A DNA stretch of 33,654 nucleotides from Oscillospiraceae bacterium. Its GTDB lineage: Bacteria > Bacillota > Clostridia > Oscillospirales > Oscillospiraceae. Location: NCBI GenBank assembly GCA_017435615.1, contig JAFSET010000096.1:1-33654 (forward strand), in the 5' to 3' direction. Below, piece by piece: positions 7,397 through 33,330 of the stretch. A program made the translations under genes and the position numbers. Within the stretch, counting starts at the first letter, position 1. Every line of letters begins with the position of its first letter. Under the pieces are notes generated by a model. It made no database searches. It saw only the letters and a program-made list of their open reading frames with translations, and was not told where the DNA came from.

Positions 7397-8181
7397 TAAT
7401 CCTTCACCAGGGTCAGTTGGTATTTTTGGGCCAGGGCATCCAAGGTGCCGTCAGCCATCAGCTTATCCATAAATTCATTGAATACCTTTGTGACATCGGA
7501 GTCCTGACGGAAGCCGACACCGTACTGCTCCTGGGTCAGAGCAACACCTTGTGCCAGGTCCGGATAGCCGGTACCCTCGCCGATCATAGCACCGGCCATG
7601 GTGATATCGATCACGCAGGCATCCGCCGTTCCGGAGGAAACCTCCAACAGAGCCATAGCCATATCCTGCAGCTTCAAATAGTCGGTAATGCCCATGCCGT
7701 CGAGAACCTCTTCGGCTACGGAGCCATCCTCTACCGCAAACTGCAGATCCTTTACGCTTTCCGCATCCGGATAATCCGCAACCCGGTCCGCCTTCATTAC
7801 GATCACCTGGGCATTGACCACATAAGGATCGGAGCAGCTTGTGTTGGCACGCACATCATCAGAAATAGTCATACCGTTCCAAATGGCATCGATGTTCTTA
7901 TCCTTCAGCTCATTAAACTTCTGTCCCCAATCGGCCAGGAGGAAAAACTCACATTCCACACCCAGCTCCTGGGCAAACAGCCGGGAAAGCTCCGCGTCAA
8001 AACCGGTCCACTGGCCGTTTTCGTCCTTATAGTCCATAGGCTCATACTCTGTAATGCCCACAACGAATTTTCCCTTATCCTTAATATACTGCAGATCGGA
8101 ACCATCCTTCGCTCCACCGCAGCCGGCAAAACACATCATCACCATCAAAGAGGCCATCACCAATGCAAACAGTTTTTTCAT
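7396..8181 (-). CDS. Amino acid ABC transporter substrate-binding lipoprotein
   Basis: This is a 261-residue extracellular binding protein (SBP_bac_3 class) that captures an amino acid and delivers it to the permease. A lipoprotein signal ends at FAGC, with the lipid-modified Cys at residue 21, followed by GG and a flexible linker. The mature part has the family motifs 'VVGITEYEPMDYKDENGQWTGFD' (split here by function: ligand pocket entry), 'DAIWNGMTISDD', 'VEDGSVAEEVL' and 'YGVGFRQDSD'. The ATG at 8181 is preferred over the GTG one codon earlier because of its spacing to AAAGGATGG. It is the first gene of the operon, controlled by the promoter/operator at 8235-8263. The dipeptide 'YGVGFRQ' near the C-terminus is typical of polar amino acid binders, but the ligand is not determined. 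Confidence 0.92.
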   Translation of the reverse strand: MKKLFALVMASLMVMMCFAGCGGAKDGSDLQYIKDKGKFVVGITEYEPMDYKDENGQWTGFDAELSRLFAQELGVECEFFLLADWGQKFNELKDKNIDAIWNGMTISDDVRANTSCSDPYVVNAQVIVMKADRVADYPDAESVKDLQFAVEDGSVAEEVLDGMGITDYLKLQDMAMALLEVSSGTADACVIDITMAGAMIGEGTGYPDLAQGVALTQEQYGVGFRQDSDVTKVFNEFMDKLMADGTLDALAQKYQLTLVKD

Positions 8182-8234
8182 CACAATCCATCCTTTCGCT
8201 CCCAGTTTTGTACCGGGGTGTTGTTGATAATGGA

Positions 8235-8263
8235 AGTATACTTTACTTCGTTAAAGTTGTAAA
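8235..8263 (-). promoter_or_regulatory. Transporter operon promoter with an operator filling the spacer
   Basis: The minus strand has TTTACA, 17 bases, then TATACT. The dyad ACTTTA-N6-TAAAGT (8240-8257) occupies exactly the spacer and first base of the -10 box. A bound protein would either block polymerase or, as with MerR-type factors, remodel the promoter. The spacing of 17 is already optimal, which favours simple repression. Confidence 0.65.
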
Positions 8264-8324
8264 GTGTTTTTTTCCTGTTTTTGCATATTTTATCAGGATG
8301 CACAAAACCCGCATACTCTTTACC

Positions 8325-8342
8325 ACTTTAGTTTGGTAAAGT
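8325..8342. promoter_or_regulatory. Second copy of the ACTTTA-N6-TAAAGT dyad
   Basis: The outer half-sites are identical to those at 8240-8257 and only the six central bases differ. The offset is 85 bp, about eight helical turns, so proteins at the two sites could contact each other by looping. It lies between the LRR gene terminator and the transporter promoter. Confidence 0.55.
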
Positions 8343-8360
8343 TTTACAGCTATTCCATAT

Positions 8361-8400
8361 AAAAATGCATCCGGGATGGCCCACAGGGTCATCCCGGATG
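8361..8400 (-). terminator. Intrinsic terminator of the LRR/Ig gene
   Basis: An 11-bp stem pairs 8368-8378 with 8390-8400 (CATCCGGGATG / CATCCCGGATG). On the minus strand it is followed by CATTTTTAT. It lies 10 bp after the stop codon. Confidence 0.85.
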
Positions 8401-8409
8401 ATCAACTGC

Positions 8410-10875
8410 TTATTCAACTGTCAGGGTCACCACATTGGAATAGATCACATTTCCGTAGCTGTCTGTGATCACGCAGCGGTACTGATTGCCGTCACGGGTC
8501 TTGGTCGCAGGCACGCTCAGCGTAGCGGTCTGATTTCCGCTGGCCGGGGAGTTTTTCCACTGGCCGTCAGCAGAAGCGCGGTACTGCCACTGGAAGGTTA
8601 CGCCGGTGCCCTTGGCGGTTACCGCAAAGCTGGCTGTGCCGCCTGCTTTCAGCACAGCGTCCTTGGGCTGCGCGGTGACCTTCAGGGTCACAATATTCAA
8701 GGTTGCTTCCGTGGAACAGACAACATTGCCGTAGCCATCCGTAATCACACAGCGGTATTGGTAGCCGTCACGGGTCTTGGTCGCAGGCACGCTCAGCGTG
8801 GCAGTCTGATTACCGCTGGCCGGAGAGTTTTTCCACTGGCCGTCGGCAGCGGTGCGGAACTGCCACTGATACTGCAAAGCTGTCCCCTGGGCCTTTACGG
8901 TGAATTTGGCTGTGGAACCTGCGATCAAATTCTGAGCCGCAGGCTGGGCGGTCAGTTTCAGGATCACCACATTCAATGTGGCTTCGTTGGAAGCAATCAC
9001 ATTGCCGTAGCTGTCGGTAATCACACAGCGGTACTGATAACCGTTACGGCTTGCGGTAACCGGAACCGTCAGCTCCGCTGTGGCATTGCCGGTAGCCGGA
9101 GACTTTTTCCACTGGCCGTCAGCAGAGGTGCGGTACTGCCACTGATACTGCAGCTCTGTGCCCTCACAGGTCACGGCAAATTTTGCTGTGGAGCCTGCGA
9201 TCAGATTCTGTGCTGCAGGCTGGGCGGTGATCTTCAAGGTTATGATATGCAATGAGGCTTCATTGGAATAGATCACATTGCCATAGCTGTCGGTGATCAT
9301 ACAGCGGTACTGGTAGCCATCACGGCTTGCGGTAACCGGAACCGTCAGCTCCGCTGTGGCATTGCCGGTGGCCGGTGAATTCTTCCACTGGCCCTCTGCC
9401 GTAGTGCGGAACTGCCACTGATATTGCAGATCCGTTCCTTCACAGGTCACGGCAAACTTGGTCGTACCGCCTGCCAGCCGCCATATGTCCGACGGCTGCT
9501 GAGTGATCACGCCACGGCCATACTCCAAAGTAAGCTGTGCGTTTTGCAGATCTCCGTTATTGGTTCCGAATTCAATTTGATCCCACTGCTCCTGAGAGCC
9601 TTTGTAGCCAACAGTCTGCAGGCTCTGGCACATAGAGAACGCGTAATTGCCGATGGTCGTTACGCTGCTGGGGATCACGATCTCCGTCAGGCCGGCACAG
9701 CGGCAGAACGCCTCCACACCGATGGAGGTCACCCCATCAGCAACGCTGTAGCTGCCGCTGATGGTGCCGGGAGCCTGGATCAGCGCAGTCTTATCCTTAT
9801 TATAGAGAACACCAACGGTGTCCGAGCAGTAATGAACGTTGGCTTCATCCACCCATATACCGGTCAGATTGGTACACTCGGCAAAAGCGTAATTACCAAT
9901 TTTTTCCACATTGACACCAACACTGACAGACGTCAGACCGTTGCAGGAGGAAAAGGCATATTCGGAAATAGCGGTCACGCTGCCGCTGATCTCATAGCTG
10001 CCGGAAAACGCACCGGGTGCCTGGATCAGCTTTGTCCGGTCCTTGCTGTAAAGCACACCGCTGTCACTGCAAAAATGGGCATTATTCTCATCGACGGAGA
10101 TGGCGGTGAGATTGGAGCAAAAGTTAAATACATACTGACCGATGGAGGTTACGCTGGCAGGAACGGTCACTTCCGTCAGGCTCTTGCAGGAATTAAAGGC
10201 CATACTGCCAATGCTTTTTACACCGTCAGCAATATGATAGCTGCCGCAGATGCCACCGGGGGCCTGGATCAGGCTCGTTTGGGCTTTGTTCAGCAGAACG
10301 CCGCTGCTGTCACTGCTGTAGGCGGAATTTTCCCCGTCCACAGTAAAGCCTGTCAGGCTGGGGCAGAAGGTAAAGGCATAGCTGCCGATGGAGGTCACGC
10401 TGGCAGGAATGGTCACTTCTGTCAATTTCGCACAATAGGTAAAGGCATAGTTTCCGATGGTCGTGACCTGGTCCGGAATGGTCAGCTCCGTCAAGTTGCC
10501 GCAGGACCAAAAGCTGTATCTTCCCAAAGTCTTTGCTGACTGGGGTATGGACACGGTTCTTAAGCCGGAGCAGTAGCTGAAGGCATAGTTGCCAATAGCG
10601 GTCACACCCTCCGGAATGACCACCGAGGTCAGTCCCGGACACTGATAGAACGCATAATTGCCAATGGCAGTCACCGGGTAACCCTCAATGTTATCCGGGA
10701 TGACCAATTCCCCGGCCACAGAAGGGTCGCAGTCCAAAATAGTCACCTGCTCCTCTGCTACGGTATATTTCAGGCTTTCGTACACAGCCGCCTTTGCGCT
10801 GTCCGGCAGAACAACGGCACACAGCACCACTGTCAATACCAACGCAAGCGTGCCAAGCCTTGTCATTGCTTTCAT
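8410..10875 (-). CDS. Secreted BspA-type leucine-rich-repeat protein with four Ig-like domains
   Basis: The protein has 821 residues. A signal peptide covers residues 1-30 (cleavage near DSAKAA). Residues 55-450 are LRR_5/BspA repeats of the form 'SIGNYAFxxCxxLTEVTIPxSVT'. They are interrupted three times by a module ending in 'GVLxNKxxTxLIQAPG', which is usual in this family. Residues 455-821 are four Ig-like domains of about 92 residues, each with 'LQYQWQFRT' (or 'FQWQYRA'), 'DGQWKNSP' and 'YQYRCVITDSYGNV'. No LPxTG motif or C-terminal membrane helix is seen, so surface retention would need another route. BspA proteins usually bind host or microbial surfaces; the target here is unknown. The ATG at 10875 is chosen over a frame 15 codons longer, because GGGGA and the signal peptide fit it. 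Confidence 0.9.
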   Translation of the reverse strand: MKAMTRLGTLALVLTVVLCAVVLPDSAKAAVYESLKYTVAEEQVTILDCDPSVAGELVIPDNIEGYPVTAIGNYAFYQCPGLTSVVIPEGVTAIGNYAFSYCSGLRTVSIPQSAKTLGRYSFWSCGNLTELTIPDQVTTIGNYAFTYCAKLTEVTIPASVTSIGSYAFTFCPSLTGFTVDGENSAYSSDSSGVLLNKAQTSLIQAPGGICGSYHIADGVKSIGSMAFNSCKSLTEVTVPASVTSIGQYVFNFCSNLTAISVDENNAHFCSDSGVLYSKDRTKLIQAPGAFSGSYEISGSVTAISEYAFSSCNGLTSVSVGVNVEKIGNYAFAECTNLTGIWVDEANVHYCSDTVGVLYNKDKTALIQAPGTISGSYSVADGVTSIGVEAFCRCAGLTEIVIPSSVTTIGNYAFSMCQSLQTVGYKGSQEQWDQIEFGTNNGDLQNAQLTLEYGRGVITQQPSDIWRLAGGTTKFAVTCEGTDLQYQWQFRTTAEGQWKNSPATGNATAELTVPVTASRDGYQYRCMITDSYGNVIYSNEASLHIITLKITAQPAAQNLIAGSTAKFAVTCEGTELQYQWQYRTSADGQWKKSPATGNATAELTVPVTASRNGYQYRCVITDSYGNVIASNEATLNVVILKLTAQPAAQNLIAGSTAKFTVKAQGTALQYQWQFRTAADGQWKNSPASGNQTATLSVPATKTRDGYQYRCVITDGYGNVVCSTEATLNIVTLKVTAQPKDAVLKAGGTASFAVTAKGTGVTFQWQYRASADGQWKNSPASGNQTATLSVPATKTRDGNQYRCVITDSYGNVIYSNVVTLTVE
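8426..9520. repeat. Four tandem ~276-bp DNA repeats encoding the Ig-like domains
   Basis: Equivalent positions recur at about 8452, 8728, 9005 and 9281, for example the segment 'CAGCGGTACTG' and its variants. The nucleotide sequence is conserved along with the protein. This points to recent duplication or gene conversion, and to a likely site of copy-number change. Confidence 0.8.
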
Positions 10876-22116: not shown

Positions 22117-22140
22117 TATTTTATTATGGAGGTGCATCCT

Positions 22141-22947
22141 ATGGAATTTTCCGTCAACCATCCCATTTTGTTTTTGATGGCAGGCATCTTGGTAGCCGTG
22201 GTGCTGGGTCAGTCGGTGTTTTTCCTGATCAAAGCCCTGCGGCGCAGCAAGGAGCTGGGCATGGATCAGGTGAAGATCCGCAAGACCATCGGCACCGCCG
22301 CGGTATTTACCGTTGCGCCGGCTGTGGCCATTGTCATCAGCATCATCACCCTGAGCAAAAAGTTAGGTCTTCCCCTGCCCTGGCTGCGGCTGAGTGTTGT
22401 AGGCTCTATGAGCTACGAAACCGTGGCTGCCAACAACGCTTTAAGCGGTATGGGCCAGTCCCTGGGCTCTGCCGTCGGTCTCAATGCCCAGCAGTATCTC
22501 AATGTGCTGATCGTCATGACCGTCAGCATTATGATGGGCATTTGGCTGGTGCCGGTGATCGGCAAAAAGCTCCAAAGCGGTATGACCAAGCTGGGAAACC
22601 GGGACGCCAAATGGGCCGATGCCTTCTCCAACTCCCTGTTTATCGGTATGATCGCCGCCTTCCTGGGCTATGTGTTCTGTGATGTCTCCCGGCTGTGGGA
22701 CCCCAGCACCCGGTTTGTTACCCAAACCGTGATAGAAAACGGCGCAGAGGTGGAACAGCAGGTAGCCGTCAGTGCCAGCTCCGGTATGATCCCCGTGTGC
22801 ACCATGGCCGTTTCCGCTGTGGTCATGATCCTTTGCGGTCTTCTGATGCGCAAGCCGAAGCTGAAGTGGCTCAGCGAGTACGCGCTGCCTATCAGTCTGA
22901 TCGTGGGCATGGCTGCCGCCATTCCCCTGACCGCATGGCTGAGCTAA
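22141..22947 (+). CDS. DUF5058 family integral membrane protein
   Basis: The protein has 268 residues and about six hydrophobic helices. I recognise the DUF5058 pattern: 'HPILFLMAGILVAVVLGQSVFFLIKA' at the start, then 'VAPAVAIVISIITLSKKLGLPLPWLRLSVVGSMSYE' and 'MIPVCTMAVSAVVMILCGLL'. The function is unknown. It lies 12 bp from a second membrane protein and a membrane-anchored M20 peptidase, so the three plausibly form an import-and-cleavage unit for peptides or acylated amino acids. The ATG at 22141 follows GGAGG. Glycine and small residues in helices and paired Ser/Glu residues ('SYETVAANN') fit a transporter. Confidence 0.82.
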   Translation: MEFSVNHPILFLMAGILVAVVLGQSVFFLIKALRRSKELGMDQVKIRKTIGTAAVFTVAPAVAIVISIITLSKKLGLPLPWLRLSVVGSMSYETVAANNALSGMGQSLGSAVGLNAQQYLNVLIVMTVSIMMGIWLVPVIGKKLQSGMTKLGNRDAKWADAFSNSLFIGMIAAFLGYVFCDVSRLWDPSTRFVTQTVIENGAEVEQQVAVSASSGMIPVCTMAVSAVVMILCGLLMRKPKLKWLSEYALPISLIVGMAAAIPLTAWLS

Positions 22948-22959
22948 GGAGGTATTGTG

Positions 22960-23625
22960 ATGAAAAAGAACCTGTCTTATATGGATTCCGTCCACCGGGA
23001 CGGACGAATTTGGAACATCGGCGTGATGATCCTGCTGCTTCTGTTCCCTGTGGCGGTTGCCCTGGCCTTCGGCGTGCTGCCGGACTGGAACGCACTGGTC
23101 ATCGGTCTTTTGGCCACCGCCCCCATGTACTGGGCTGTGGGTGCCATTGAAACTGTGACCTTTGTACCTATGCTGGGCGCAGGCGGCTCCTACTTAAGCT
23201 TTGTTACCGGCAATATATCCAATCTGAAGCTGCCCTGTGCGCTGAATGCATTGGAGCAAAATCAGGTCAGCGCCAACTCTGAGGAGGGCGAGGTCATTTC
23301 CACCATCGCCATTGCCACCTCCAGCATCGTCACCACCCTGATCATCATTTTGGGCGTGATCCTGATCGTGCCTCTGACACCGATCTTGTCTGCACCGGTG
23401 CTGCAGCCTGCCTTTGAGCAGATCCTGCCCGCGCTGTTCGGCGGTCTGGGTGTGGCCTTTGTTTCCAAAAACTGGAAGATCGCTGTTGCACCGATTTGCC
23501 TGATGCTGATCCTGTTTGTCTTCGTGCCTGCCCTGGATGCCTCCACCGTAGGCATTATGGTGCCGGTCAGTGCGCTGTTTACCATTGCCGTGGCCCGGAT
23601 CTTGTACAAAAGGGGCGTGCTGTAA
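22960..23625 (+). CDS. Polytopic membrane protein, partner of the DUF5058 protein
   Basis: The protein has 221 residues and about six hydrophobic helices; I cannot name its family. Visible features are 'FVPMLGAGGSYLSFVTGNISNLKLPCALNALE', an acidic soluble loop around 105-115 ('SANSEEGEV') and 'IAIATSSIVTTLIIILGVIL'. It follows the DUF5058 gene by 12 bp and its stop overlaps the M20 start by one base (TAATG). Coupling at both ends suggests a stoichiometric complex. The ATG at 22960 is preferred to the GTG just before it, since it is better spaced to AGGAGG. It could be the second subunit of a heteromeric transporter; this is inference from context only. Confidence 0.8.
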   Translation: MKKNLSYMDSVHRDGRIWNIGVMILLLLFPVAVALAFGVLPDWNALVIGLLATAPMYWAVGAIETVTFVPMLGAGGSYLSFVTGNISNLKLPCALNALEQNQVSANSEEGEVISTIAIATSSIVTTLIIILGVILIVPLTPILSAPVLQPAFEQILPALFGGLGVAFVSKNWKIAVAPICLMLILFVFVPALDASTVGIMVPVSALFTIAVARILYKRGVL

Positions 23626-25061
23626 TGATCGTTCTGTATATCATATTGACCCTTTTGGCGCTGCTTCTGTCGGTGCTTCTGATCCGCACCTTTCTGTTTA
23701 GACCAAAGGCGCAAAAGCCTCTTTCCGACGAGACTGTCAGCTTTGATAAGGACGCTGCCGTCCAGGCACTGCAGCAGCTTGTGCAGTGCAAAACTATTTC
23801 TTATAACGACCACGCCCTGGAGGATGACGGGGAATTCAAAAAGCTCATCCGGCTTCTGCCCCAGCTCTACCCCCGGGTCTTTGATGTTTGTTCCATGCAG
23901 GAGCTGCCGGACCGGGCCTTGCTGCTGCGGTGGCCGGGCAAAACAGAAGCGGAGCCTACTGTGCTGATGGCCCATTACGATGTGGTGCCGGTGGACGAAG
24001 AAAAGTGGGACAAGCCCCCCTTTGCCGGTATTTTGGAGGATGGCATTCTGTGGGGCCGCGGCACACTGGACACCAAGGTGACCATGAACGGCGCCCTCAG
24101 TGCCGCAAACCACCTGATCGCCCAGGGCTTTACCCCGGAGCATGACATTTATTTCGCCTTTTCCGGCGGCGAAGAGGTCAACGGCTTAGGTGCGGTGCAC
24201 ATCGTAGACTACTTTATCAAGCACCACATCCAGCCTGCGCTGGTGGTGGATGAAGGCGGCGGCGTTGTGGAAAATGTGTTCCCCGGTGTCAAAGCCCCCT
24301 GCGGCCTGATCGGCATTGCGGAAAAGGGTATGATGAATGTGGAATACTCCGTCAAGTCCGGCGGCGGTCACGCCTCCGCACCTCCGGTAAAGACTCCCCT
24401 GACTACCCTGTCCCAGGCCTGCCTGTCCGTCATAAAGCACCCCTTCAAAATGCACCTGACCAAACCGGCGGCAGAGATGTTTGACACACTGGGCCGGCAC
24501 TCTACCTTCCTTTTCCGGCTGATCTTCGCCAATATGTGGCTGTTCAAGCCGGTTCTGGATATGATCTGCAAGTCCGGCGGCGGTGAAATGAACGCCCTGG
24601 TGCGTACCACCACAGCCTTCACCCAGGCCCAGGGCAGTGACGCCCGGAATGTGATCCCCACCCAGGCGACCCTGGTCAGCAATATGCGGCTGAACCCTGC
24701 AGAGTCCGTTGCTTCCGCCACCGCTTACCTGAAAAAGGTGGTCAATGACGAGTCCGTTTCCATCACGGTTCTGGAAAGTGCCGAGCCCAGCCCCATTTCC
24801 GAAACGGACTGCGCCGGATGGGATAAGGTCAGCGCCGCTGTGGCGGAAACCTGGCGTGGCTGCATCGTTGCGCCCTACCTGATGGTGCAATGCTCCGACT
24901 CCCGGCATTATGGCCGTCTGAGCAACCACGTCTACCGTTTCTCCGCAATGGATCTGACCGCCGAGGAACGGAAAACCATCCACGGCAACAACGAACGCAT
25001 CCGGCTGGATGCACTGTACCGCTGTGTGGAATTCTATATCCGCCTGATCAAAAAATGCTAA
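23625..25061 (+). CDS. Membrane-anchored M20 family metallopeptidase (CPS1-like)
   Basis: The protein has 478 residues. An N-terminal helix (1-26) anchors it. The catalytic region is the M20 / carboxypeptidase S type: H117 (MAHYDVV), D149 (GRGTLDTK) bridging two zincs, general base E183 with E184 (SGGEEVN), D209 (VDEGG), and H453 as the final metal ligand. H249 in 'GGGHASAPP' starts the lid/dimer domain (about 240-350). CPS1 and PM20D1 relatives cleave or condense N-acyl amino acids or dipeptides. The orientation relative to the membrane is unclear. Overlap with the upstream gene suggests it works on what the two membrane proteins carry. All metal residues are present, so it should be active. 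Confidence 0.9.
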   Translation: MIVLYIILTLLALLLSVLLIRTFLFRPKAQKPLSDETVSFDKDAAVQALQQLVQCKTISYNDHALEDDGEFKKLIRLLPQLYPRVFDVCSMQELPDRALLLRWPGKTEAEPTVLMAHYDVVPVDEEKWDKPPFAGILEDGILWGRGTLDTKVTMNGALSAANHLIAQGFTPEHDIYFAFSGGEEVNGLGAVHIVDYFIKHHIQPALVVDEGGGVVENVFPGVKAPCGLIGIAEKGMMNVEYSVKSGGGHASAPPVKTPLTTLSQACLSVIKHPFKMHLTKPAAEMFDTLGRHSTFLFRLIFANMWLFKPVLDMICKSGGGEMNALVRTTTAFTQAQGSDARNVIPTQATLVSNMRLNPAESVASATAYLKKVVNDESVSITVLESAEPSPISETDCAGWDKVSAAVAETWRGCIVAPYLMVQCSDSRHYGRLSNHVYRFSAMDLTAEERKTIHGNNERIRLDALYRCVEFYIRLIKKC

Positions 25062-25067
25062 GCACAT

Positions 25068-25096
25068 GAGGCGCACTTCCTTGCGGAGTGCGCCTC
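25068..25096 (+). terminator. Hairpin after the M20 gene
   Basis: GAGGCGCACT pairs with AGTGCGCCTC around a 9-nt loop, 7 bp past the stop. No strong T-run follows, so it may be weak or factor-assisted. Confidence 0.55.
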
Positions 25097-25117
25097 AACT
25101 AAGTTTACCCTTACAAG

Positions 25118-25179
25118 CAAGTGAAGTTTCGCCTTGCGGCGAAGTGAGCAAACTTTACTTCACTTGGTCTAAAAGACCA
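25118..25179. repeat. Nested hairpin cluster
   Basis: CAAGTGAAGT (25118-25127) pairs with ACTTCACTTG (25157-25166) and encloses the hairpin TTCGCC-TTGC-GGCGAA (25128-25143). A third hairpin, TGGTCT-AAA-AGACCA, follows at 25165-25179. This is a compact compound palindrome at the upstream edge of the AT-rich orphan genes. It does not match the ATTGC/GCAAT family. Confidence 0.65.
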
Positions 25180-25228
25180 AACTACACTGTGAACGAAGAG
25201 AGCAATCCCTCTTTTTAACATTTGCTCC

Positions 25229-25257
25229 TTGAAACGTTAAAAGAAATATGGTAAAGT
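25229..25257 (+). promoter_or_regulatory. Promoter of the zinc-ribbon gene
   Basis: TTGAAA, 17 bases, TAAAGT. A leader of about 65 nt separates it from the ATG at 25329. Confidence 0.6.
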
Positions 25258-25328
25258 ATCATTATTCCTAATGTAAATTGACGATTTTTATATTGTTTCA
25301 TAGATAAAAGCAGAAACGGGGTATATAA

Positions 25329-25904
25329 ATGGAACTGAAATCGCTACAATGTCCTAACTGCGGTGCTACTTTAGATATCGAGGATGGACTTGATACATTT
25401 TTCTGTAAGTACTGCGGTTACAAAATTTTGCTTGAAGGTCAAAGCAAAGCTGCTTACGAAGCCAAAGTGTGCGTCAAACACATGGAACACGAGGAAAGAC
25501 TGCAAGATAAACGAGATTCACATGAACGCTTCAAAATGGAGTTCGCTCAAAAAGATCAAAGGAACACTTTTTTGATTGTGTTTAGCATTTTCGGTGCCAT
25601 TATCGCACTATGCTTGATCATTTCATTGTTCGGCAATGCTGGCGCAAAAAGGCAAGAACGTGAATTGCAGGCTATTGTTGACCAAATCATGATAGACATT
25701 GAGAATGAAGATTTTGCTGAAGCATATGTAAAAGCAAATTCATTGTATTGGGATGACAGTTGGACATCTAAAGGCGAAGAGAAATGGCATGCTACCAGAA
25801 AAGAAGTCATTAAGCAGATAGAAGAAGCAGAGAAAAAAGTGACCGGAACGACGTCCAACTCAGCAGAAGATGATTCCGGTGAATTTTGGGATTGGTTTAA
25901 TTGA
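25329..25904 (+). CDS. Orphan membrane protein with N-terminal zinc ribbon
   Basis: The protein has 191 residues. Residues 1-33 are a zinc ribbon with C8-x2-C11 and C26-x2-C29 (LQCPNCG, FFCKYCG). A charged helical stretch runs to residue 78, then one hydrophobic segment (about 80-103) and a charged C-terminal coil with a Gly/Glu/Asp-rich tail ending DWFN. I do not recognise a named family beyond the common zinc-ribbon membrane proteins of Firmicutes. Base composition is visibly more AT-rich than the flanking genes, and codon use is also different (many AAA, GAA, ATT). The ribosome binding site (GGGG) is weak. It converges on the unrelated gene at 26042. It could be part of an acquired module; the function is unknown. 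Confidence 0.75.
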   Translation: MELKSLQCPNCGATLDIEDGLDTFFCKYCGYKILLEGQSKAAYEAKVCVKHMEHEERLQDKRDSHERFKMEFAQKDQRNTFLIVFSIFGAIIALCLIISLFGNAGAKRQERELQAIVDQIMIDIENEDFAEAYVKANSLYWDDSWTSKGEEKWHATRKEVIKQIEEAEKKVTGTTSNSAEDDSGEFWDWFN

Positions 25905-25970
25905 TATCCCTTAGCAGATATTTTTGCATTATCAGCTTGCATAGTTTATTTAAAGTTGGTCACCGTTTTC

Positions 25971-26010
25971 AAAACCGCCAGTTTCCATTATGAAAACTGG
26001 CGGTCTTTTC
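25971..26010. terminator. Bidirectional terminator between the two orphan genes
   Basis: ACCGCCAGTTT (25974-25984) pairs with AAACTGGCGGT (25994-26004). It is followed by CTTTT on the plus strand and TTTTG on the minus strand. Confidence 0.8.
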
Positions 26011-26041
26011 ATTGTTCATTTTGCTTTGCATTGATTCTTCT

Positions 26042-26722
26042 CTATTTTGAATCAAGTAAATTATCTGATGTTACAAGCAACATTCCGACACCTATAGATA
26101 ACAGAACCAACTGTTCTCTATATTCAGGATCATTGCATCCAATAATATACTCGCCCCATTTCACACCCAAATCAGAAGCAACTTTGTTAATCTGCATAAT
26201 CTTTTTTCTCTTACTAAATATTATGATTTCTTTGCCTGTATCATCACAATTCAAAGTAAACTCACTATTCGGCATTGAGAACTTCCGCTTATCGAAAGAA
26301 ACATTAGTACCTATTTCATATTGCCTACCTTGATTGCTAATTACGCAAGTTTGCCTTGATGAACTAAACAGTGCCTTTTTTATCTCTAATCTCGCCAATT
26401 CTCTTCCGGCTAATTCAATTACAGCACACTTTTGTTGGGAGGTTGAAGACAATGGTTTTGTTACGATAATTGGTTCATTTTCTGCGTTATATACTGCAAA
26501 GAAATTTTCATGCAAGTCATAATCCTGGGCAAATATCATATCATCCATCTTACGTTTCACTTCACGGACGATATACCTATACTTGTAAGGATATTTAGAA
26601 AGATACTCCAAATTCTTTTGTTGCTGCTTTAAAAATGCATCCTCAGTCTTCTTTCCAATTGCTTGCGCACCTGCGCCGATCAAGCTTGCCCCAGCACCAA
26701 TAACTTTTCCCAGTATGCCCAC
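26042..26722 (-). CDS. Orphan protein, possibly LURP-one/tubby-like fold
   Basis: The protein has 226 residues. A short glycine-rich amphipathic N-terminus ('GKVIGAGASLIGAGAQAIG') could touch the membrane. Residues 60-210 alternate strands in a pattern like LURP-one-related/YxjI proteins: 'FFAVYNAENEPI', 'ARLEIKKALFSSSRQT' and 'GKEIIIFSKRKKIMQI'. The assignment is by pattern and unproven. Start is GTG at 26722, with GGAGGGG upstream. The gene is AT-rich like its convergent neighbour and has a perfect-consensus promoter, which stands out in this window. No partner gene shares its strand. The function is unknown. Confidence 0.7.
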   Translation of the reverse strand: MGILGKVIGAGASLIGAGAQAIGKKTEDAFLKQQQKNLEYLSKYPYKYRYIVREVKRKMDDMIFAQDYDLHENFFAVYNAENEPIIVTKPLSSTSQQKCAVIELAGRELARLEIKKALFSSSRQTCVISNQGRQYEIGTNVSFDKRKFSMPNSEFTLNCDDTGKEIIIFSKRKKIMQINKVASDLGVKWGEYIIGCNDPEYREQLVLLSIGVGMLLVTSDNLLDSK

Positions 26723-26757
26723 ACAAACCCCTCCACTAATTCAGCATTGTGATGTTA

Positions 26758-26786
26758 ATTATATCAGTCTGAACAAATAATGTCAA
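26758..26786 (-). promoter_or_regulatory. Consensus promoter of the 26042 orphan gene
   Basis: TTGACA, 17 bases, TATAAT on the minus strand: both boxes perfect, at optimal spacing. It would give strong constitutive expression unless repressed. Confidence 0.85.
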
Positions 26787-26857
26787 ACTATAGTAAATAT
26801 AGGTAACAGGTGCCGTTTCTCGTGATCCTTTCAAATCATTTTGAGACAGCACCATTT

Positions 26858-28078
26858 TTATCGGTCAGTTTTATCCAAGCTGTAGACCCAGCGGTAGTCC
26901 TCTGTACGCAGGTAAGAGGATAAAATGTTGGCAATGGCACCCAGGGGCATGATCTGTTCGGAGGTATCGGAGATGCGCACTTCAAAATTCTCCGAAGTGA
27001 ACACTGTATTGCTTCGCATGGACCGTTCCAGTTCCTCCAGGAAGCAGGGTCCCAGCTCCAGCATAAAGCCGTAGAGCACGATCAGCCGGGGGTTTAGCAG
27101 GTTAATGGCGTTGGCAATGGCTCTGCCCAAATGGCCGGCAGCCTGAGCCACATAATGCCGGCACATCCGATCATTTTGATCCAGTGCCCAGCGCACATCC
27201 TGTACCGTCAGCGGCTTGTCCGCACGCTGCTGCAAACAAGAGATCACACCGCTTTCCAGTGCCCCCCGGAGCTGCTGCTGCAAGGCCGGCCACGCCGCAG
27301 CCGTCTCCACACAGTCCGGCTTTCCGCAGTAGCACATCCTTCCTGCTCCGCCCTCTGTCACCGTATGGCCCAGCTCACCGGCAGTGCCGTCCGCTCCACC
27401 GATGGCGTGACCGCCGGAAAAAATGGAGGTTCCAACGCCGTTGGACAGCTCCACCCATATAAAATCCTCCACATCTCTGGCCGCACCGAACCGATGCTCG
27501 GCCTGAGCAGGCAGGGTCACACTGCTGAATATTTCCGTCCGCAGATGGAAGGTCTGCTCCAAATAGGGCGCAAGAGTCTTCTCAAACCAGGTAGACCGGG
27601 GTCCTGTGTACACACTCCCCATGCTGCGGTAGCGCAGCGGATCTACCAAAGGCTTACAAATTCCGATTCCTGCAAAAAACCGGTCCTGATACTGCTGCAA
27701 AAGCGTCTGCAAGCCGGCTGTGATTTGCTCAGTCAGCGCATCCGGATGCTCCGCCCCGTAAGGCAGCTCCTGCTGCTGCAGGATGGTGCCGTCAAACTGA
27801 GACAGCACCAGGCACACCCGGTGGGCGGTGAAGGAAATACCGATGCCGCAGATGTGGCTTTTGTGGATCTCCAGCATAGTCCGCTTCCGTCCCTGACCGC
27901 TGGACCGAAAACCGGTTTCCACGATCAGCTCCTTTTCCAACAGCTCTCCGACGATGCTGCCCACGGTGGCAGGGCGGTAACCGGTCAACTCGATCAATGA
28001 GGTACGGCTCACCGGGCCCAAATGGTTGATCATATTCAAAATCAGTCTGTGTCGCTGAAAATGGTTATTTGGCTGCAT
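26858..28078 (-). CDS. ROK family transcriptional regulator (NagC/XylR type)
   Basis: This 406-residue repressor has an N-terminal winged helix-turn-helix (about 10-70, 'GPVSRTSLIELTGYRPATVGSIVGELLEKELI') and a C-terminal ROK sugar-binding domain. The domain carries 'GVGTSIFSGGHAIGGADGTAGELGH' and the zinc site 'CYCGKPDCVE'. The kinase-type 'ENDANAA' segment is 'SSVTLPAQAE', so the catalytic Asp is lost and it should regulate without phosphorylating. ROK repressors of this type bind an amino or neutral sugar (or its phosphate) and release DNA. It is divergent from the hydrolase/NagA/NagB-like operon, with a dyad between them. The gene follows AGAGGGG and its own promoter. No co-directional neighbour is near. 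Confidence 0.92.
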   Translation of the reverse strand: MQPNNHFQRHRLILNMINHLGPVSRTSLIELTGYRPATVGSIVGELLEKELIVETGFRSSGQGRKRTMLEIHKSHICGIGISFTAHRVCLVLSQFDGTILQQQELPYGAEHPDALTEQITAGLQTLLQQYQDRFFAGIGICKPLVDPLRYRSMGSVYTGPRSTWFEKTLAPYLEQTFHLRTEIFSSVTLPAQAEHRFGAARDVEDFIWVELSNGVGTSIFSGGHAIGGADGTAGELGHTVTEGGAGRMCYCGKPDCVETAAAWPALQQQLRGALESGVISCLQQRADKPLTVQDVRWALDQNDRMCRHYVAQAAGHLGRAIANAINLLNPRLIVLYGFMLELGPCFLEELERSMRSNTVFTSENFEVRISDTSEQIMPLGAIANILSSYLRTEDYRWVYSLDKTDR

Positions 28079-28108
28079 AGAACCCCTCTTTTCCTGTTAC
28101 TGATCCTT

Positions 28109-28137
28109 ACTATAACACACTTTTCCCTGTCAGGCAA
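28109..28137 (-). promoter_or_regulatory. Promoter of the ROK regulator
   Basis: TTGCCT, 17 bases, TATAGT on the minus strand, about 30 bp before the ATG. Confidence 0.65.
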
Positions 28138-28169
28138 TGAGATTTCGGAAATTTTTCGAAATATTTTCA

Positions 28170-28199
28170 CCACTTAGTTACGTTTTCGTAATTAAGTGG
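28170..28199. promoter_or_regulatory. Candidate ROK operator (long dyad)
   Basis: CCACTTAGTTACG and CGTAATTAAGTGG form a 13-bp inverted repeat with one mismatch around TTTT. The core TTAGTTAC...GTAATTAA resembles the TTAGTT...AACTAA operators known for XylR-type ROK repressors. It lies 33 bp from the regulator's -35 box, between the divergent promoters. A short T-run after the plus-strand arm makes a terminator the alternative reading. Confidence 0.6.
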
Positions 28200-28307
28200 C
28201 TTTTTCTCCGCCGAGAACCCTTCCATAGGGGTTTTGATGAAATGTACAAAATAGGGCCTGCTATTTTGACAGTTTTTCACAAGAAAACGCGGCTTTTCCT
28301 TTGGATA

Positions 28308-28337
28308 TTGACACTGGGATGAAAAAAGTGATAAAAT
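28308..28337 (+). promoter_or_regulatory. Promoter of the hydrolase/NagA/NagB-like operon
   Basis: TTGACA, 18 bases, TAAAAT. The start point would be near 28344, where a second half-site pair lies. Confidence 0.75.
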
Positions 28338-28338
28338 A

Positions 28339-28390
28339 CACTTGCGAAAGTAAGTGGAGTAAAAACCGCATCTATCTCCAGACCTTTCGC
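28339..28390 (+). promoter_or_regulatory. Operon start-point dyad and leader hairpin
   Basis: CACTT-N8-AAGTG (28339-28356) overlaps the predicted start point and shares the CACTT half-site with the 28170-28199 dyad. In RNA, GCGAAAG (28344-28350) pairs with CTTTCGC (28384-28390) around an inner GGAG/CTCC stem. Either DNA-level repression or an RNA leader is possible. The leader from 28391 to the ATG holds only the ribosome binding site. Confidence 0.45.
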
Positions 28391-28434
28391 GACGCAACAA
28401 ACAAATCTGTTATAAAGGTAAAGGAGAACACAGT

Positions 28435-29778
28435 ATGAACACACTGCAAGCCGGCTTTGGCCGGGTTAATGTCACCCCCATGCTGGGCATTGACATTGTT
28501 GGTTATTTCAAGGTTCGCAAGGCAGAAGCCGTTTTGGACGAGCTGGAGATCAACGCTTTGGCTCTGGCTTGCGGCAGCACCAAGGTGGTGCTGTTAAGTA
28601 TGGATCACCTGGGTATTCGGATGGAACTGGCTGACCGGTTCCGCCGCCACGTATCGCAGGTTACCGGCCTGCCCTATGAGGCAATTTTGATTCACTGCAC
28701 CCATACCCACACCGGTCCCAGCCTGATGCTTGACACCGGTGATGCGCTGATCGACCAATACATCTGCTTTGTTCAGCACAAAATGGCCGATGCCGCTGTG
28801 GCCGCACTGCAGGACCTGAAGCCTGCGAAAATGGGCTACGCCGTAGGCTCTGCCCCCAATATTGCCTTTATCCGCCGTTTCCGCATGAAGGACGGCTCCA
28901 TCAAGACCAATCCCGGTGTGAACAACCCGGATATCGTCGCACCCATTGGCGAGGTGGACGAACGGGTCAATGTTCTGCGCTTCGATCAGGAGGGCGGCAA
29001 GAGTCTTGTGCTGGTAAACTTCGGTGATCACCCGGATACCGTCGGCGGCTGCAAGCTCTCCTGCGACTGGCCCGGCTTTATGCGCCGCACCCTGGAGCAG
29101 GCCATTGACAACACCCGCTGTATTTTCTTCAACGGCGCTCAGGGTGATGTGAACCACGTCAATGTCCGGCCCACCGGCGGCTATCTCAACGACACCTTTC
29201 ATGATTTCGACGATGTTTCCCGTGGCTACGGTCACGCCCGGTTTATGGGCCGTGTAGTAGCAGGTGGCGTGATGCAGGTTTATGACAAAGTCTATTATCA
29301 GGATGTAGACTCCATCCGCTTTCTCCAAAAGACCCTGGAGGTTCCCTCCAACATGCCGGACCCGGCACAGATGCCGGAGGCTCACCGCATCAATGACCTG
29401 CACAACGCAGGCAAGGATGCCGAGCTGCCCTATGAGGGCATGATGCTGACCACCGTTGTGGCCGAGGCAGGACGAATGGTTCGCCTGGAGCACGGTCCTG
29501 CCAGCTTCCCCATGTACCTGACCGGCATTGCCATCGGCAGCATTGCCATTGCCGGTATCCCCGGCGAGCCCTTCACCGGCATCGGTAAAGCACTGAAGGA
29601 GGCATCCGGATGGGATCTGGTACTGCCTATGTGCCTGGTCAACGGCTCTCAGGGGTATTTCCCCATGAAGGAAGCCTACGACGAAGGCGGCTATGAAGCA
29701 AGAAGCTCCAATTTCAAAGCAGGCGTTGCTGAGCTGATCATCCAAGAGGGCACCGCACTGCTGGACAGTTTGAGGTAA
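28435..29778 (+). CDS. Neutral-ceramidase-fold hydrolase, Ser nucleophile position is Asn
   Basis: This 447-residue protein has the neutral/alkaline ceramidase N-terminal domain pattern: 'GFGRVNVTPMLGIDIVGYF', 'VVLLSMDHLGI' and the zinc motif H90-T-H92 in 'CTHTHTGPS'. A third ligand, H199, sits in 'NFGDHPD'. The expected 'GDVSPN'-type catalytic Ser segment reads 'GAQGDVNHVN' (about 234-243), with Asn240 in that place. There is no signal peptide, so it is cytoplasmic, unlike secreted ceramidases, and the C-terminal Ig-like domain of ceramidases (about 650 residues in total) is missing. It is first in an operon with NagA- and NagB-like genes. It probably hydrolyses an amide or ester of an amino-sugar-like compound; the substrate is not known. 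The ATG follows AAAGGAG. Confidence 0.82.
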   Translation: MNTLQAGFGRVNVTPMLGIDIVGYFKVRKAEAVLDELEINALALACGSTKVVLLSMDHLGIRMELADRFRRHVSQVTGLPYEAILIHCTHTHTGPSLMLDTGDALIDQYICFVQHKMADAAVAALQDLKPAKMGYAVGSAPNIAFIRRFRMKDGSIKTNPGVNNPDIVAPIGEVDERVNVLRFDQEGGKSLVLVNFGDHPDTVGGCKLSCDWPGFMRRTLEQAIDNTRCIFFNGAQGDVNHVNVRPTGGYLNDTFHDFDDVSRGYGHARFMGRVVAGGVMQVYDKVYYQDVDSIRFLQKTLEVPSNMPDPAQMPEAHRINDLHNAGKDAELPYEGMMLTTVVAEAGRMVRLEHGPASFPMYLTGIAIGSIAIAGIPGEPFTGIGKALKEASGWDLVLPMCLVNGSQGYFPMKEAYDEGGYEARSSNFKAGVAELIIQEGTALLDSLR

Positions 29779-29783
29779 CGGAT

Positions 29784-30926
29784 ATGACTGCCATCATCCA
29801 TGCAACACTGGTTATGCGTGACCACTACATTCCCGACGCTGTTCTGCTCATCGAGGACGGTCTGATCAAAGCCTTTGGTCCGGCCAAGAGCTTGCCTATT
29901 CCGGAAAGCTGTGATATCATCGATGCCAAGAGACTGTATGTGGGTCCCGGATTTGTGGATATCCACACCCACTCCGACGGCAAGGTCTTCTTCCAGGATG
30001 ACCCGGTCACAGCTTCTCAGCACCACTTAAAGCACGGCACCACTTCCCTGCTGCCTGCACTGTACACCAGTATGAACACCTACCAGTATGTACAGTCTGT
30101 GGCTGTGCTGCGGCAGGCAATGAACCGGCCGGAATGTGCCAACATCGCCGGGCTGTATATGGAAGGTCCCTATCTGAACCCCGGCTTTGGCTGCGACCGC
30201 ACCTCCAACCCCTGGGCAAACGGCGTGGTAAAATCCGCCTATCAGCCGGTGATCGAATCCGCCTGGGATCTGGCCAGGGTCTGGTGTATTGCGCCGGAAC
30301 GGGAAGATATTATGAACTTCGTCCGGGATGTGAAGGCTAAGAACCCCAACGCGGTCTTTGCGGTGGCTCACTCCGCCGCATCCCCCCAGGAAATTGAAGC
30401 ACTGATCCCCTACGGACTGAAGATCGGCACCCATCACACCAACGCCACCGGTGACCGTCCCAAGTATCCGGAATGTCGGGGCGTATGTGTCGATGAAGCG
30501 GTAAACTACAACCGGGAGATCTACGCGGAGCTGATCTGCGACTCTATGGGTATCCACGTCGATCCGTATATGCTCCGGCTGGTCCGGAAGATCAAGGGAG
30601 AAGACCGAATTATCCTGATCTCCGACGCCTATGCCTGTGATGGGCCTGTCCCCCCCGGCTATGACGGCGTGGACGACATCAACTTCGACTGGGAAGGCGA
30701 GATTGCAGGCTCCAAGATGACTTTGGATATTGCCTGCCGCAATATGATGAAGCACACCGGTGCTTCTGTGGTGGATGTGTTCCGCTACGCCTCCTACAAC
30801 CCCTCCAGAGCTGTGGGGCTTTTGGACCGTGGTGAAATTGCCGTAGGTTTACGTGCAGACCTGGTGATCTGTGATCATCAGATGAATATTCAATCTGTAA
30901 TTCTGAAAGGAGAATATGTGAAATGA
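29784..30926 (+). CDS. NagA-like amidohydrolase (N-acetylglucosamine-6-phosphate deacetylase family)
   Basis: This is a 380-residue cytoplasmic amidohydrolase of the NagA group. Metal and catalytic residues line up with NagA: H61/H63 (VDIHTHSD), E127 (MEGPYL), H196 (VAHSAAS), H217-H218 (THHTNATGD), H258 (SMGIHVD) and D281 (LISDAYACDG), the catalytic Asp. 'GDxP' in place of NagA 'NAMSP' follows H217. The C-terminal beta domain ends 'VGLRADLVICD'. It starts 5 bp after the hydrolase gene and its stop overlaps the NagB-like gene by 4 bp. In the NagA family it removes an acetyl (or other acyl) group from an amino sugar. Whether the substrate here carries a 6-phosphate is in doubt, because the neighbour lacks the phosphate motif. 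Confidence 0.88.
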   Translation: MTAIIHATLVMRDHYIPDAVLLIEDGLIKAFGPAKSLPIPESCDIIDAKRLYVGPGFVDIHTHSDGKVFFQDDPVTASQHHLKHGTTSLLPALYTSMNTYQYVQSVAVLRQAMNRPECANIAGLYMEGPYLNPGFGCDRTSNPWANGVVKSAYQPVIESAWDLARVWCIAPEREDIMNFVRDVKAKNPNAVFAVAHSAASPQEIEALIPYGLKIGTHHTNATGDRPKYPECRGVCVDEAVNYNREIYAELICDSMGIHVDPYMLRLVRKIKGEDRIILISDAYACDGPVPPGYDGVDDINFDWEGEIAGSKMTLDIACRNMMKHTGASVVDVFRYASYNPSRAVGLLDRGEIAVGLRADLVICDHQMNIQSVILKGEYVK

Positions 30927-31891
30927 GCAATATTTTTGAGCCTGTAACCAAGTTTAGCTTTGAGCCTGCTGATTTTGTACCCTTTAAGGACCGTGAGGTC
31001 TGTGAACGGGTGCGGAATATGAGCGGCAAGGAGCTGGAAAACCGGGAGCCCTGGTGGCATCCGGAATTCAATGTCAAGGTGATGATGAACCCCCATCCGG
31101 TGCTGATCGCCACCCTGTTCTCCCGCCTGAAGGCCGCTTCCGAGACCGGTAAGCCCTTCTCCATGATCCTGGGCAACCCGGAGCCTGACACCTACATTCC
31201 CCTGGCTCAGCTGATCAACTACTTCCAGGTGGACTGCTCCAAGGTCAGCATCTTTGCTGAGGACGAGTGGGCCGACCAGGACGGCAACATTGCCCCGGAG
31301 ACCTATGAGGCCGGCTTTGCCCATTCCATGCTGAAATATTTGGTCCACCAGATCGATCCCAAGCTGCGGATGCCCATGGAGAATGTGTACTACCCCACCA
31401 ACAAGAACATCAATGACTACTCCAATATCATCAACGATGTGACCGAGGGCGGCGCTGACATCATCTCCACCTCCCCCGGCTGGACCGGTCACGTGGCCTT
31501 TGTGGATCCCATCCCCGAGTTTATGGGTGACGGTGACATTGAGCAGTGGCTCAATCAGCCGGCACAGCTTGTGAAGCTGCACCCCATGACCATTATGCAG
31601 AACTCTCTGAACGGCACCTTCGGTCAGTCCGGTGACATTGCCAACGTGCCGCCTATGGCCGCAACCATCGGCCCCATCGATGTGATGCGCGCCAAGGAGC
31701 GTATCGAGGTCCACGCCCTTGCCACCAACGGCACCTTCTCCTCCTGGCAGAGAATGACCTCCCGTCTGGTGACCCACGGTCCTGTGACACCGCTGGTCCC
31801 CAGCTCCATGCTGCAGACCAAGAAGACCCAGGTCTACATCAGCGAAGAGCTGGCTGCTCCCTTCGAGTGCTGGGAAAAGGTCGGCTATTGA
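30923..31891 (+). CDS. Divergent NagB-like protein (glucosamine-6-phosphate isomerase/deaminase superfamily)
   Basis: The 322 residues match the NagB/6-phosphogluconolactonase fold in order: 'SMILGNPEPDTYIPLAQLI' (78-96) where NagB has its GLPTGGTP phosphate loop, 'SIFAEDEWADQD' (109-120) for the NMDEY motif, 'SPGWTGHVAFVDP' (184-196) for GxxxDGHIAFNEP, and 'AATIGPIDVMRAKE' (246-259) for the ALTVG segment. The TGxTP loop is lost. The DGH aspartate is Thr188, while His190 is kept and the NEP Glu is Asp195. NagB is about 50 residues shorter; the extra part is mainly an N-terminal extension. The gene overlaps the NagA-like gene by 4 bp. It likely isomerises, deaminates or cleaves an amino-sugar product, but the chemistry is open. 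Confidence 0.82.
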   Translation: MSNIFEPVTKFSFEPADFVPFKDREVCERVRNMSGKELENREPWWHPEFNVKVMMNPHPVLIATLFSRLKAASETGKPFSMILGNPEPDTYIPLAQLINYFQVDCSKVSIFAEDEWADQDGNIAPETYEAGFAHSMLKYLVHQIDPKLRMPMENVYYPTNKNINDYSNIINDVTEGGADIISTSPGWTGHVAFVDPIPEFMGDGDIEQWLNQPAQLVKLHPMTIMQNSLNGTFGQSGDIANVPPMAATIGPIDVMRAKERIEVHALATNGTFSSWQRMTSRLVTHGPVTPLVPSSMLQTKKTQVYISEELAAPFECWEKVGY

Positions 31892-31904
31892 TCCACTACA
31901 TACA

Positions 31905-31950
31905 ATCAGGGGCTGTTCAGTTTTGCGCTGAACAGCCCCTGATATTTTTT
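31905..31950 (+). terminator. Intrinsic terminator of the three-gene operon
   Basis: A perfect 16-bp stem (31905-31920 with 31928-31943) is followed by ATTTTTT. It lies 13 bp past the stop and also faces the convergent MATE gene, where the T-run is weak. Confidence 0.92.
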
Positions 31951-31953
31951 CAA

Positions 31954-33330
31954 TTATTTATCATTTTGCATTGTATTGCTTTTCATAGTTTTGCGCCACA
32001 GGTGCATAAAGCACAGCAGCATTGCACAGACCGTGATGACCCAGGACACCGGGTAAGACAAAAACAGGCAATGCAGCGTGGGAATGGCCTTAAATATGGT
32101 CATCACCCATACCACACGCAGCAGGCAGGCACCTACAATGGCCACGATCATAGGCACGATAGCCTGGCCCATGCCACGCATGGCACCGGACAGCACATCC
32201 ATCATGCCGCACAGAAAATACAACAGACAAACATACCGCATCCGGGTAATCCCGTAGCCAATGGCCTGCACATCGGTTTTCAGGTACAGCGGCAGAAGCT
32301 GCTCCGCGAACAGGAACGCACCGCCGCCCAGCACAATGCCAACCACTGCCGCGCAGCCAATGCACAGTCCTACGATCCGGCCCAGGTTTTGATATCGCCG
32401 GGCACCCATATTCTGCCCGGCAAACGTAGTGGCGGACTGCTGAAAGCCGTTCATGGACATATACACAAAGCCTTCAATATTGGAAGCGGCCGTACTGCCG
32501 GACAGCACCACCTCACCAAAGGAATTGATGGAAGACTGAATGGTCACATTGGAAACGGCAAACAACGTACCCTGAATACCGGCCGGCAGGCCCACCCGGA
32601 TGATCTTGCCTAATGTAGGCATATGGATCTTTAGCTTTTTCAAGTCCAGCCTGCAGCCGTCCTCACGCAGAGCAAGCTTCCGCAGCACCAAAAAGCAGGA
32701 AAGAACCTGGGACAAAGTGGTTGCCAGGGCAACGCCCTCTACGCTCATACCAAAGCCCAAAACAAAAACCAAATTCAGGCACACATTGACTGTACCTGCA
32801 ATCACCAGGTACACAAGCGGACTTTGGGAATCGCCGGCAGAGCGCAAAATAGCCGCACCGAAATTGTATAACAAGATCGGAATGATCCCTGCAAAATAGA
32901 TCTGCATATAAATCGTTGCGCCGTCGATGACCGCCGCAGGCGTGTCCATCAGTTCCAGAAAAAAGCGACAGAAGCAGATGCCCACAACTGTCAAAAACGC
33001 ACCGCAGATCGCAGCAGCCGGCAAAGCTGTGTGGACCGCCCGGCTCATACGGGCGTGGTCCCGGGCGCCTACCGCCTGGGCAACACACACGCCTACGCCA
33101 ATGGATAATCCCATAAACAGTCCCACGATCAAATTGATCAGAGAGCCGGTGGAGCCCACCGCACTGACCGCATTGGGTCCCCGGAATTGCCCCACCACCA
33201 CAAGGTCCGCGGCATTAAACAACAGCTGCAGCAGGCTGGTGGCAATAATCGGTAATGTATATAGGATGATCTTCTTTAAAAACGGGCCGGTACACAGGTC
33301 CATACCGTTTTTTTTGGCGCGGGCCGGCAT
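31954..33330 (-). CDS. MATE family multidrug/cation efflux transporter
   Basis: This is a 458-residue inner-membrane antiporter of the MATE family (DinF/NorM-like), with about twelve hydrophobic segments in two six-helix halves. The N-half carries 'LLQLLFNAADLVVVGQF' and 'GLFMGLSIGVGVCVAQAVGA', and the C-half the parallel 'MNGFQQSATTFAGQNMGARR', the usual repeat of the fold. It exchanges cations for drug-like organic cations or metabolites; the substrate cannot be told. The ATG at 33330 follows AGAAGG. It is a single gene convergent with the NagB-like operon and shares the terminator region. It has its own promoter. A role in export for that operon is possible but only by proximity. Confidence 0.95.
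   Translation of the reverse strand: MPARAKKNGMDLCTGPFLKKIILYTLPIIATSLLQLLFNAADLVVVGQFRGPNAVSAVGSTGSLINLIVGLFMGLSIGVGVCVAQAVGARDHARMSRAVHTALPAAAICGAFLTVVGICFCRFFLELMDTPAAVIDGATIYMQIYFAGIIPILLYNFGAAILRSAGDSQSPLVYLVIAGTVNVCLNLVFVLGFGMSVEGVALATTLSQVLSCFLVLRKLALREDGCRLDLKKLKIHMPTLGKIIRVGLPAGIQGTLFAVSNVTIQSSINSFGEVVLSGSTAASNIEGFVYMSMNGFQQSATTFAGQNMGARRYQNLGRIVGLCIGCAAVVGIVLGGGAFLFAEQLLPLYLKTDVQAIGYGITRMRYVCLLYFLCGMMDVLSGAMRGMGQAIVPMIVAIVGACLLRVVWVMTIFKAIPTLHCLFLSYPVSWVITVCAMLLCFMHLWRKTMKSNTMQNDK

Follow-up and report, generated by a model that had tools for sequence, protein, structure and literature searches.

Which compound is degraded by an operon that resembles the textbook amino-sugar pathway and whose NagB-fold enzyme lacks the phosphate site? 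This question is raised by contig JAFSET010000096.1 of an Oscillospiraceae bacterium (assembly GCA_017435615.1), a stretch of 33,654 nucleotides that is referred to as a whole as the window. The operon comprises three genes on the forward strand, encoding a ceramidase-fold hydrolase (CER, 28435..29778, 447 amino acids), a NagA-like amidohydrolase and putative deacylase (NAGA, 29784..30926, 380 amino acids), and a NagB-fold enzyme without phosphate site (NAGB, 30923..31891, 322 amino acids). CER and NAGA are separated by 5 base pairs (bp), while NAGA and NAGB overlap by 4 bp. A ROK-family regulator of 406 amino acids is encoded divergently (26858..28078, reverse strand). The open reading frame coordinates and the ROK domain agree with this layout as described in the initial annotation. 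The present analysis shows the order of the genes, their predicted folds, the loss of particular residues, the conservation of neighbours, and a shared palindrome. The gene set is probably a lookalike of the textbook pathway, rebuilt for a sugar before phosphate is attached. With somewhat more confidence than doubt, we read it as a ROK-controlled system for the catabolism of an N-acylated amino sugar that carries no phosphate, probably spread horizontally as a module among gut Clostridia, with an FGGY kinase acting after NAGB.

NAGB keeps the catalytic pair and lacks the phosphate site

In single-sequence searches, NAGB matched no Pfam family and no PDB entry at E≤0.001, and scored only 29.5 and 25.7 bits against NagB models, the better of the two against a cut-off of 326 (TIGR00502 was not listed). 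The NagB fold is supported by profile searches and AlphaFold2 models, the A1 profile including one canonical NagB, which flatters its E-values. In a genome collection described as covering 84,980 species, a scan confirmed 291 relatives of NAGB, and counts out of 80 refer to the best 80 of these 291 loci, 81–94% identical. Stretches from relatives are labelled L, contigs of the genome that holds the window (its own genome, G000) are labelled C, and sampled genomes are labelled G.

Residues were mapped onto the canonical NagB of the own genome (L053) and counted across the close loci whose gene call exceeds 250 amino acids, 79 of 80 (76 distinct sequences; L114, a short call, is excluded). D114 and H190 of NAGB are the equivalents of D72 and H143, which we take to be the NagB catalytic pair, and both are retained in the window and in all 79 relatives. 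S43, R172, and K208, presumably the phosphate contacts of NagB, are gone in the window and in the same 79 sequences, with S43 gapped, R172 replaced by leucine, and K208 by glutamine. The same losses recur in 20 further proteins from samples of the order and the phylum (one of them in two pieces), with leucine, valine, or methionine at R172 and a single leucine at K208.

NAGB may also be more conserved than its partners. Of 406 locus pairs, 404 show a higher identity for NAGB than for NAGA and CER, an excess that is biased because the loci were picked by NAGB similarity. In the order-wide sample, NAGB is more conserved than NAGA in all seven closer loci with both genes (L169, L170, L172–L175, L182), and in the more distant L176–L180 the two are about equal (NAGA 35–41%, NAGB 39–40%). 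A scenario in which the genes travel together without forming one pathway, NAGB being a non-catalytic sugar sensor or partner, is extremely improbable in view of the two catalytic residues retained throughout and the seven closer loci.

The active sites of NAGA and CER

NAGA scores 161.3 bits against TIGR00221, under the cut-off of 225.65. Its seven metal and catalytic positions (H61, H63, E127, H196, H217, H258, and D281) do not vary among the 21 sequences of alignment A3, which includes the canonical NagA of the own genome.

CER matched no Pfam family at E≤0.001, and the window protein missed the gathering score of PF04734. Its ceramidase match in a single-sequence search was weak (E 0.0025), while profile searches and AlphaFold2 models support the fold, and the distant CER of L044 passes PF04734 with 51.7 bits. 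The ceramidase-fold and NagB-like assignments of the initial annotation, weak by single sequence, are thus both strengthened. His90, His92, His199, Glu378, Tyr408, and Tyr420 are invariant among CER relatives. Asn240 aligns with the ceramidase active-site serine in the alignment to 2zws, a residue that we take to be Ser274 of PaCD, and asparagine occupies this position in 90% or more of the 25 rows that make up alignment A2. The deviations proposed earlier for the first and third enzymes were therefore found, as asparagine at the serine position of CER and as lost phosphate-site positions in NAGB. By eye, no obvious signal peptide is present at the start of CER.

Conserved neighbours suggest probable import and late phosphorylation

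Genes in the 80 loci were called with a simple codon-score gene caller, and one or two members served to name each partner family. Both flanks reach at least 6 kb in 52 of the 80 loci, and many stretches end at contig ends. By their titles, 53 loci derive from goat, sheep, deer, buffalo, yak, or horse gut; the other 27 name no host. NAGB is linked to NAGA in 65 loci, to CER in 29, to TPI-like genes in 29, to YjbQ in 28, and to SIS in 26, followed by CBM9-like (23), FGGY (22), DeoR (15), and TAL (12) genes. NAGA lies directly upstream of NAGB in 51 loci, 28 of them with an overlap of 1, 4, or 8 bp, and CER, NAGA, and NAGB are consecutive in 17. The gene set thus recurs elsewhere, and the reading whose fate the initial annotation had tied to such conservation stands on this point. 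The own genome (2.27 Mb) contains two TPI-like genes, two YjbQ genes, and one close SIS gene; with so few copies, chance is estimated to place each in about 1–2% of 17-kb stretches.

Within positions 22126-33330, where four operon and six other proteins were scanned with Pfam, we found no phosphotransferase system (PTS), kinase, or importer, as had been claimed. Two genes of this region (22960-23622 and 26042-26722) could be assigned to no family, and the scan started after the gene that ends at 22116. For the kinase and the importer, the absence is local only: L128 and L134 carry ABC importer genes within the operon and L062 carries them behind it, FGGY genes are found among the 80 loci, and partner genes lie elsewhere in the own genome. 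The count of 22 loci for FGGY is an upper bound, since by context the cluster seems to include rhamnulokinases. Because relatives carry importer and FGGY genes, import and late phosphorylation become likelier.

CER is multiple in nine loci (copies 58–71% identical in six) and NAGA in six (copies 55–74% identical in five). A second NAGB occurs in two only, both of the 27–28% identical, PIG-L-linked type. This difference suggests that a varied front end feeds one common intermediate.

An aminocyclitol or 3-amino-sugar route involving neighbouring dehydrogenase and aminotransferase genes is rather unlikely. Distant loci L046 and L047 do combine NAGB and CER with genes for a DegT-type aminotransferase, a Gfo/Idh/MocA-cluster dehydrogenase, a PIG-L-cluster protein, and a ROK protein, and Gfo/Idh/MocA is also present in L073 and L092. 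However, the DegT cluster is found in none of the 80 close loci and the PIG-L and Gfo/Idh/MocA clusters in two each, the Gfo/Idh/MocA count being a lower bound as further genes of this kind may fall into other clusters.

Several further neighbours were recorded. YjbQ (UPF0047) often adjoins TPI-like, SIS, and FGGY genes in gut Clostridia (L180, L177, L179, L091, L100, L109). A gene for nickel-dependent lactate racemase (LarA) directly follows the CER-NAGA-NAGB operon in L062 (8960-10234). Genes of 2-oxoacid-dehydrogenase type lie near NAGB in L056, L057, L071, L080, L102, L106, and L108 (E1 scanned in L057, the others assigned by cluster or eye), and lipoate-ligase-cluster genes occur in six loci (L064–L068 and L102; L067 scanned). 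L043, L062, and L092 encode GH123 close to NagB-like genes, as does L067 by cluster assignment; GH20 is over its cut-off in L073 and under it in L062. The GH123 hexosaminidase was considered as a substrate clue and set aside as a weak link, because the own genome has 11 GH123 matches.

Related modules in the own genome

The operon is a second route in its genome, not the sole one. A NagA over its cut-off is encoded on C4 (297.2 versus 225.65 bits) and a NagB on C33 (TIGR00502, 276.1 versus 236.9 bits), and, apart from the two TPI-like genes, C41 carries a gene that matches TIM strongly (308.8 bits). That the operon encodes the ordinary pathway for the 6-phosphates of N-acetylglucosamine (GlcNAc) or N-acetylgalactosamine (GalNAc) with diverged enzymes is very improbable. 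The NagA metal ligands and R232 are retained in NAGA and the regulator is NagC-like, but the phosphate contacts of NAGB are gone in 79 of 79 relatives, these authentic-scoring enzymes are encoded elsewhere, and no PTS was found among the recurrent neighbour families scanned (many single neighbours were left unscanned). As the initial annotation had proposed, an N-acyl amino-sugar route without hexosamine 6-phosphates is the reading that fits best.

A second module, without CER, is split in the own genome between C71 (NAGA'-FGGY'-TPI'-YjbQ') and C75 (NAGB'); in L177 and L179 NAGB', NAGA', TPI', YjbQ', and FGGY' are contiguous. A third type on C72 comprises a PIG-L deacetylase, a NagB-like protein, a PfkB kinase, and a mannitol-dehydrogenase-like protein; there (L043:4882-11309) these genes stand in one row with GH123 and an AraC-family regulator on the opposite strand. 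In each of the three types, a de-N-acylase and a sugar kinase accompany a NagB-like protein that has no phosphate site. This shared combination is our main argument that phosphorylation would follow NAGB.

Two observations concern individual paralogues. At L042:9020-10003 (reverse strand, C75), a tandem NagB-like paralogue carries tyrosine at D72 and glycine at H143 beside an intact paralogue at 8085-9017, and is perhaps a non-catalytic partner. In L166 (C5), a TPI-like gene with 79% identity to its NAGB-linked counterpart lies downstream of an apparent rhamnose operon (by eye; its FGGY kinase was scanned).

Proposed pathway

We infer each chemical step, the order of steps, the substrate class, and repression by ROK. 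An ABC transporter, encoded in some relatives, would import the compound, which CER, as a zinc-amidase-like hydrolase, may trim or free. NAGA would then remove the N-acyl group, and NAGB would deaminate and isomerise the resulting free amino sugar, yielding a ketose and ammonia, using the NagB catalytic pair and no phosphate contacts. Only after NAGB would the FGGY kinase phosphorylate the ketose, and TPI-like, SIS, and aldolase-type enzymes could pass the ketose phosphate into central metabolism. ROK would repress the operon. For the lower half only, we keep as an idea a tetrose route like that reportedly used for erythritol, with a TPI-like protein, an isomerase, and a transaldolase.

Several points weigh against this scheme. 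R232 is present in NAGA as in the canonical NagA of the own genome, so a phosphate on the NAGA substrate remains conceivable. CER occurs in just 29 of the 80 loci and is therefore not an obligatory step, and FGGY is found in the stretch of just 22. The best FGGY candidate of the own genome is on another contig (C6), and one of its TPI-like genes adjoins the apparent rhamnose operon on C5; more than one pathway may draw on TPI-like, SIS, and YjbQ genes. Furthermore, D141 of NagB is replaced in NAGB by alanine (58) or threonine (21) and E148 by aspartate in all 79 relatives, so that even deaminase chemistry is not assured. A reading of NAGB as a lactonase-like enzyme or another hydrolase from the 6-phosphogluconolactonase side of the superfamily, within a module that degrades an acyl-amide-linked sugar acid and involves no amino-sugar deamination, is decidedly unlikely.

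More tentatively, the free amino-sugar scheme may extend to a general gut route for amino sugars that are not, or cannot be, 6-phosphorylated (e.g., 6-deoxy or uronic), in which a faster-diverging CER/NAGA front end leads to one strongly conserved free-sugar NagB-fold deaminase and on to FGGY together with TPI-like, SIS, and YjbQ proteins. If true, such a 6-phosphate-free route would place the orphan family YjbQ in sugar-phosphate metabolism. Catabolism of GlcNAc, GalNAc, N-acetylmannosamine, and N-acetylmuramic acid is described as beginning with phosphorylation (PMC9537276). A free-sugar NagB-fold deaminase would invert this order with enzymes that readily pass for ordinary NagA and NagB in annotation, would mend annotations in rumen and hindgut genomes, and would tie CER-like proteins and the poorly understood YjbQ family to a testable pathway. 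In a literature search, we recognised no publication describing the CER-NAGA-NAGB set. Overall, the earlier interpretation is partly supported.

Probable spread between genomes

Among 394 genomes sampled from the order, 17 (own included) match NAGB at E≤1e-30, with no such match in four sampled genus mates or 16 listed genomes of the same family. NAGB is 83–87% identical to its counterparts in G646, G578, and G670, genomes whose Obg is just 53–57% identical to that of the window. The window Obg (PF01018) shares 78–87% identity with four genus mates and 53–57% with eight tested same-order genomes with a NAGB match. Mis-binning of the contig was rejected, because its Obg is more similar to that of the genus mates than to that of the tested NAGB-bearing genomes of the order. 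Horizontal spread of the module in gut Clostridia fits best. A plasmid search gave distant matches only (four records).

In a phylum sample of 398 genomes, 40 (own included) match NAGB at E≤0.001; five others are 39–43% identical and the rest mostly weak. The fetched stretches of all five contain a CER relative (26–32%). In G472 (L180) the order is FGGY, one unnamed open reading frame, CER, NAGA, CER, NAGB, SIS, TPI-like, and YjbQ.

Control region and surroundings

ROK scores 134.9 bits against PF00480 (cut-off 22.9) in the Pfam scan and resembles NagC/Mlc, under the equivalog cut-offs. Relatives 47–53% identical (tblastn; partial in L128) are divergent to CER in L062, L063, L128, and L130. 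An inverted repeat with 13-nucleotide arms (28170..28199) encloses a proposed 22-bp ROK operator at 28174-28195, TTAGTTACGTTTTCGTAATTAA. With at most one mismatch, this palindrome also lies between ROK and CER in L062, L063, and L128, giving four such loci with the window; in L130, the fourth close ROK locus, it is missing even at three mismatches. The pattern was derived from these sites, so their mutual matches hold by construction and the real test is absence elsewhere: no further site was found in 1.61 Mb of collected loci (at most one mismatch), and no second one in the own genome (at most two). ROK is therefore probably a local regulator. A genome-wide ROK regulon was considered and is unsupported, as allowing up to three mismatches yields the same counts for the palindrome as for the reversed pattern used as a control (4 and 2 each).

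Promoter-like sites, by consensus match only, precede rok (28109..28137, reverse strand, 9/12) and the operon (28308..28337, forward strand, TTGACA-18-TAAAAT, 11/12). A terminator-like hairpin closes the operon (31905..31943, forward strand), with a 17-pair stem followed by a T run. Terminator-like sites show no excess across the region (5 versus 4.8 in shuffles), and this stem is the longest among those listed (the next has 13 pairs). No RNA families or tRNAs were found in the window. The open reading frame at 26042-26722 (reverse strand, 226 amino acids, no Pfam family) has a perfect TTGACA-17-TATAAT promoter-like site at 26786-26758. At positions 22126-25061, a gene for a DUF5058 protein has two further genes closely behind it, of which the latter encodes an M20 peptidase.

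Comparison with known systems

The operon shares with the NagA-NagB pathway for GlcNAc-6-phosphate a deacylase followed by a NagB-fold enzyme, a NagC-like ROK regulator, the NagA metal ligands, and the NagB D72/H143 pair. In contrast, its NAGB lacks the phosphate site, NAGA and NAGB both fall under the equivalog cut-offs, CER is added, and some relatives have adjoining kinase and ABC importer genes. With neutral ceramidase (PF04734; 2zws, 4wgk), CER shares the fold and conserved His, Glu, and Tyr positions aligned to the zinc region, whose roles we take to be the same. It is shorter (447 versus more than 600 amino acids), has no Pfam-model match for the window protein, and carries asparagine for serine. 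PRK02122 (NF002557), presumably a NagB–PIG-L fusion, combines a NagB domain and a PIG-L deacetylase that are encoded by neighbouring genes on C72, where the PIG-L protein has a weak match (19.4 bits) to the C-terminal part of PRK02122; the window operon, unlike this family, has a NagA-like deacylase.

The same step order is found in the ong pathway for the oxidised chitin monomer GlcNAc1A, for which deacetylation, deamination, and then phosphorylation have been established (PMC9537276). It differs by its D-aminoacylase OngB, deaminase OngC, and KdgK, by an aldonic acid substrate, and by its description in a marine bacterium (PMC9537276). The three operon proteins, the only ones compared, belong to other families than OngB, OngC, and KdgK. 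The GlcNAc1A precedent supports the same order proposed for the operon, though with other enzymes.

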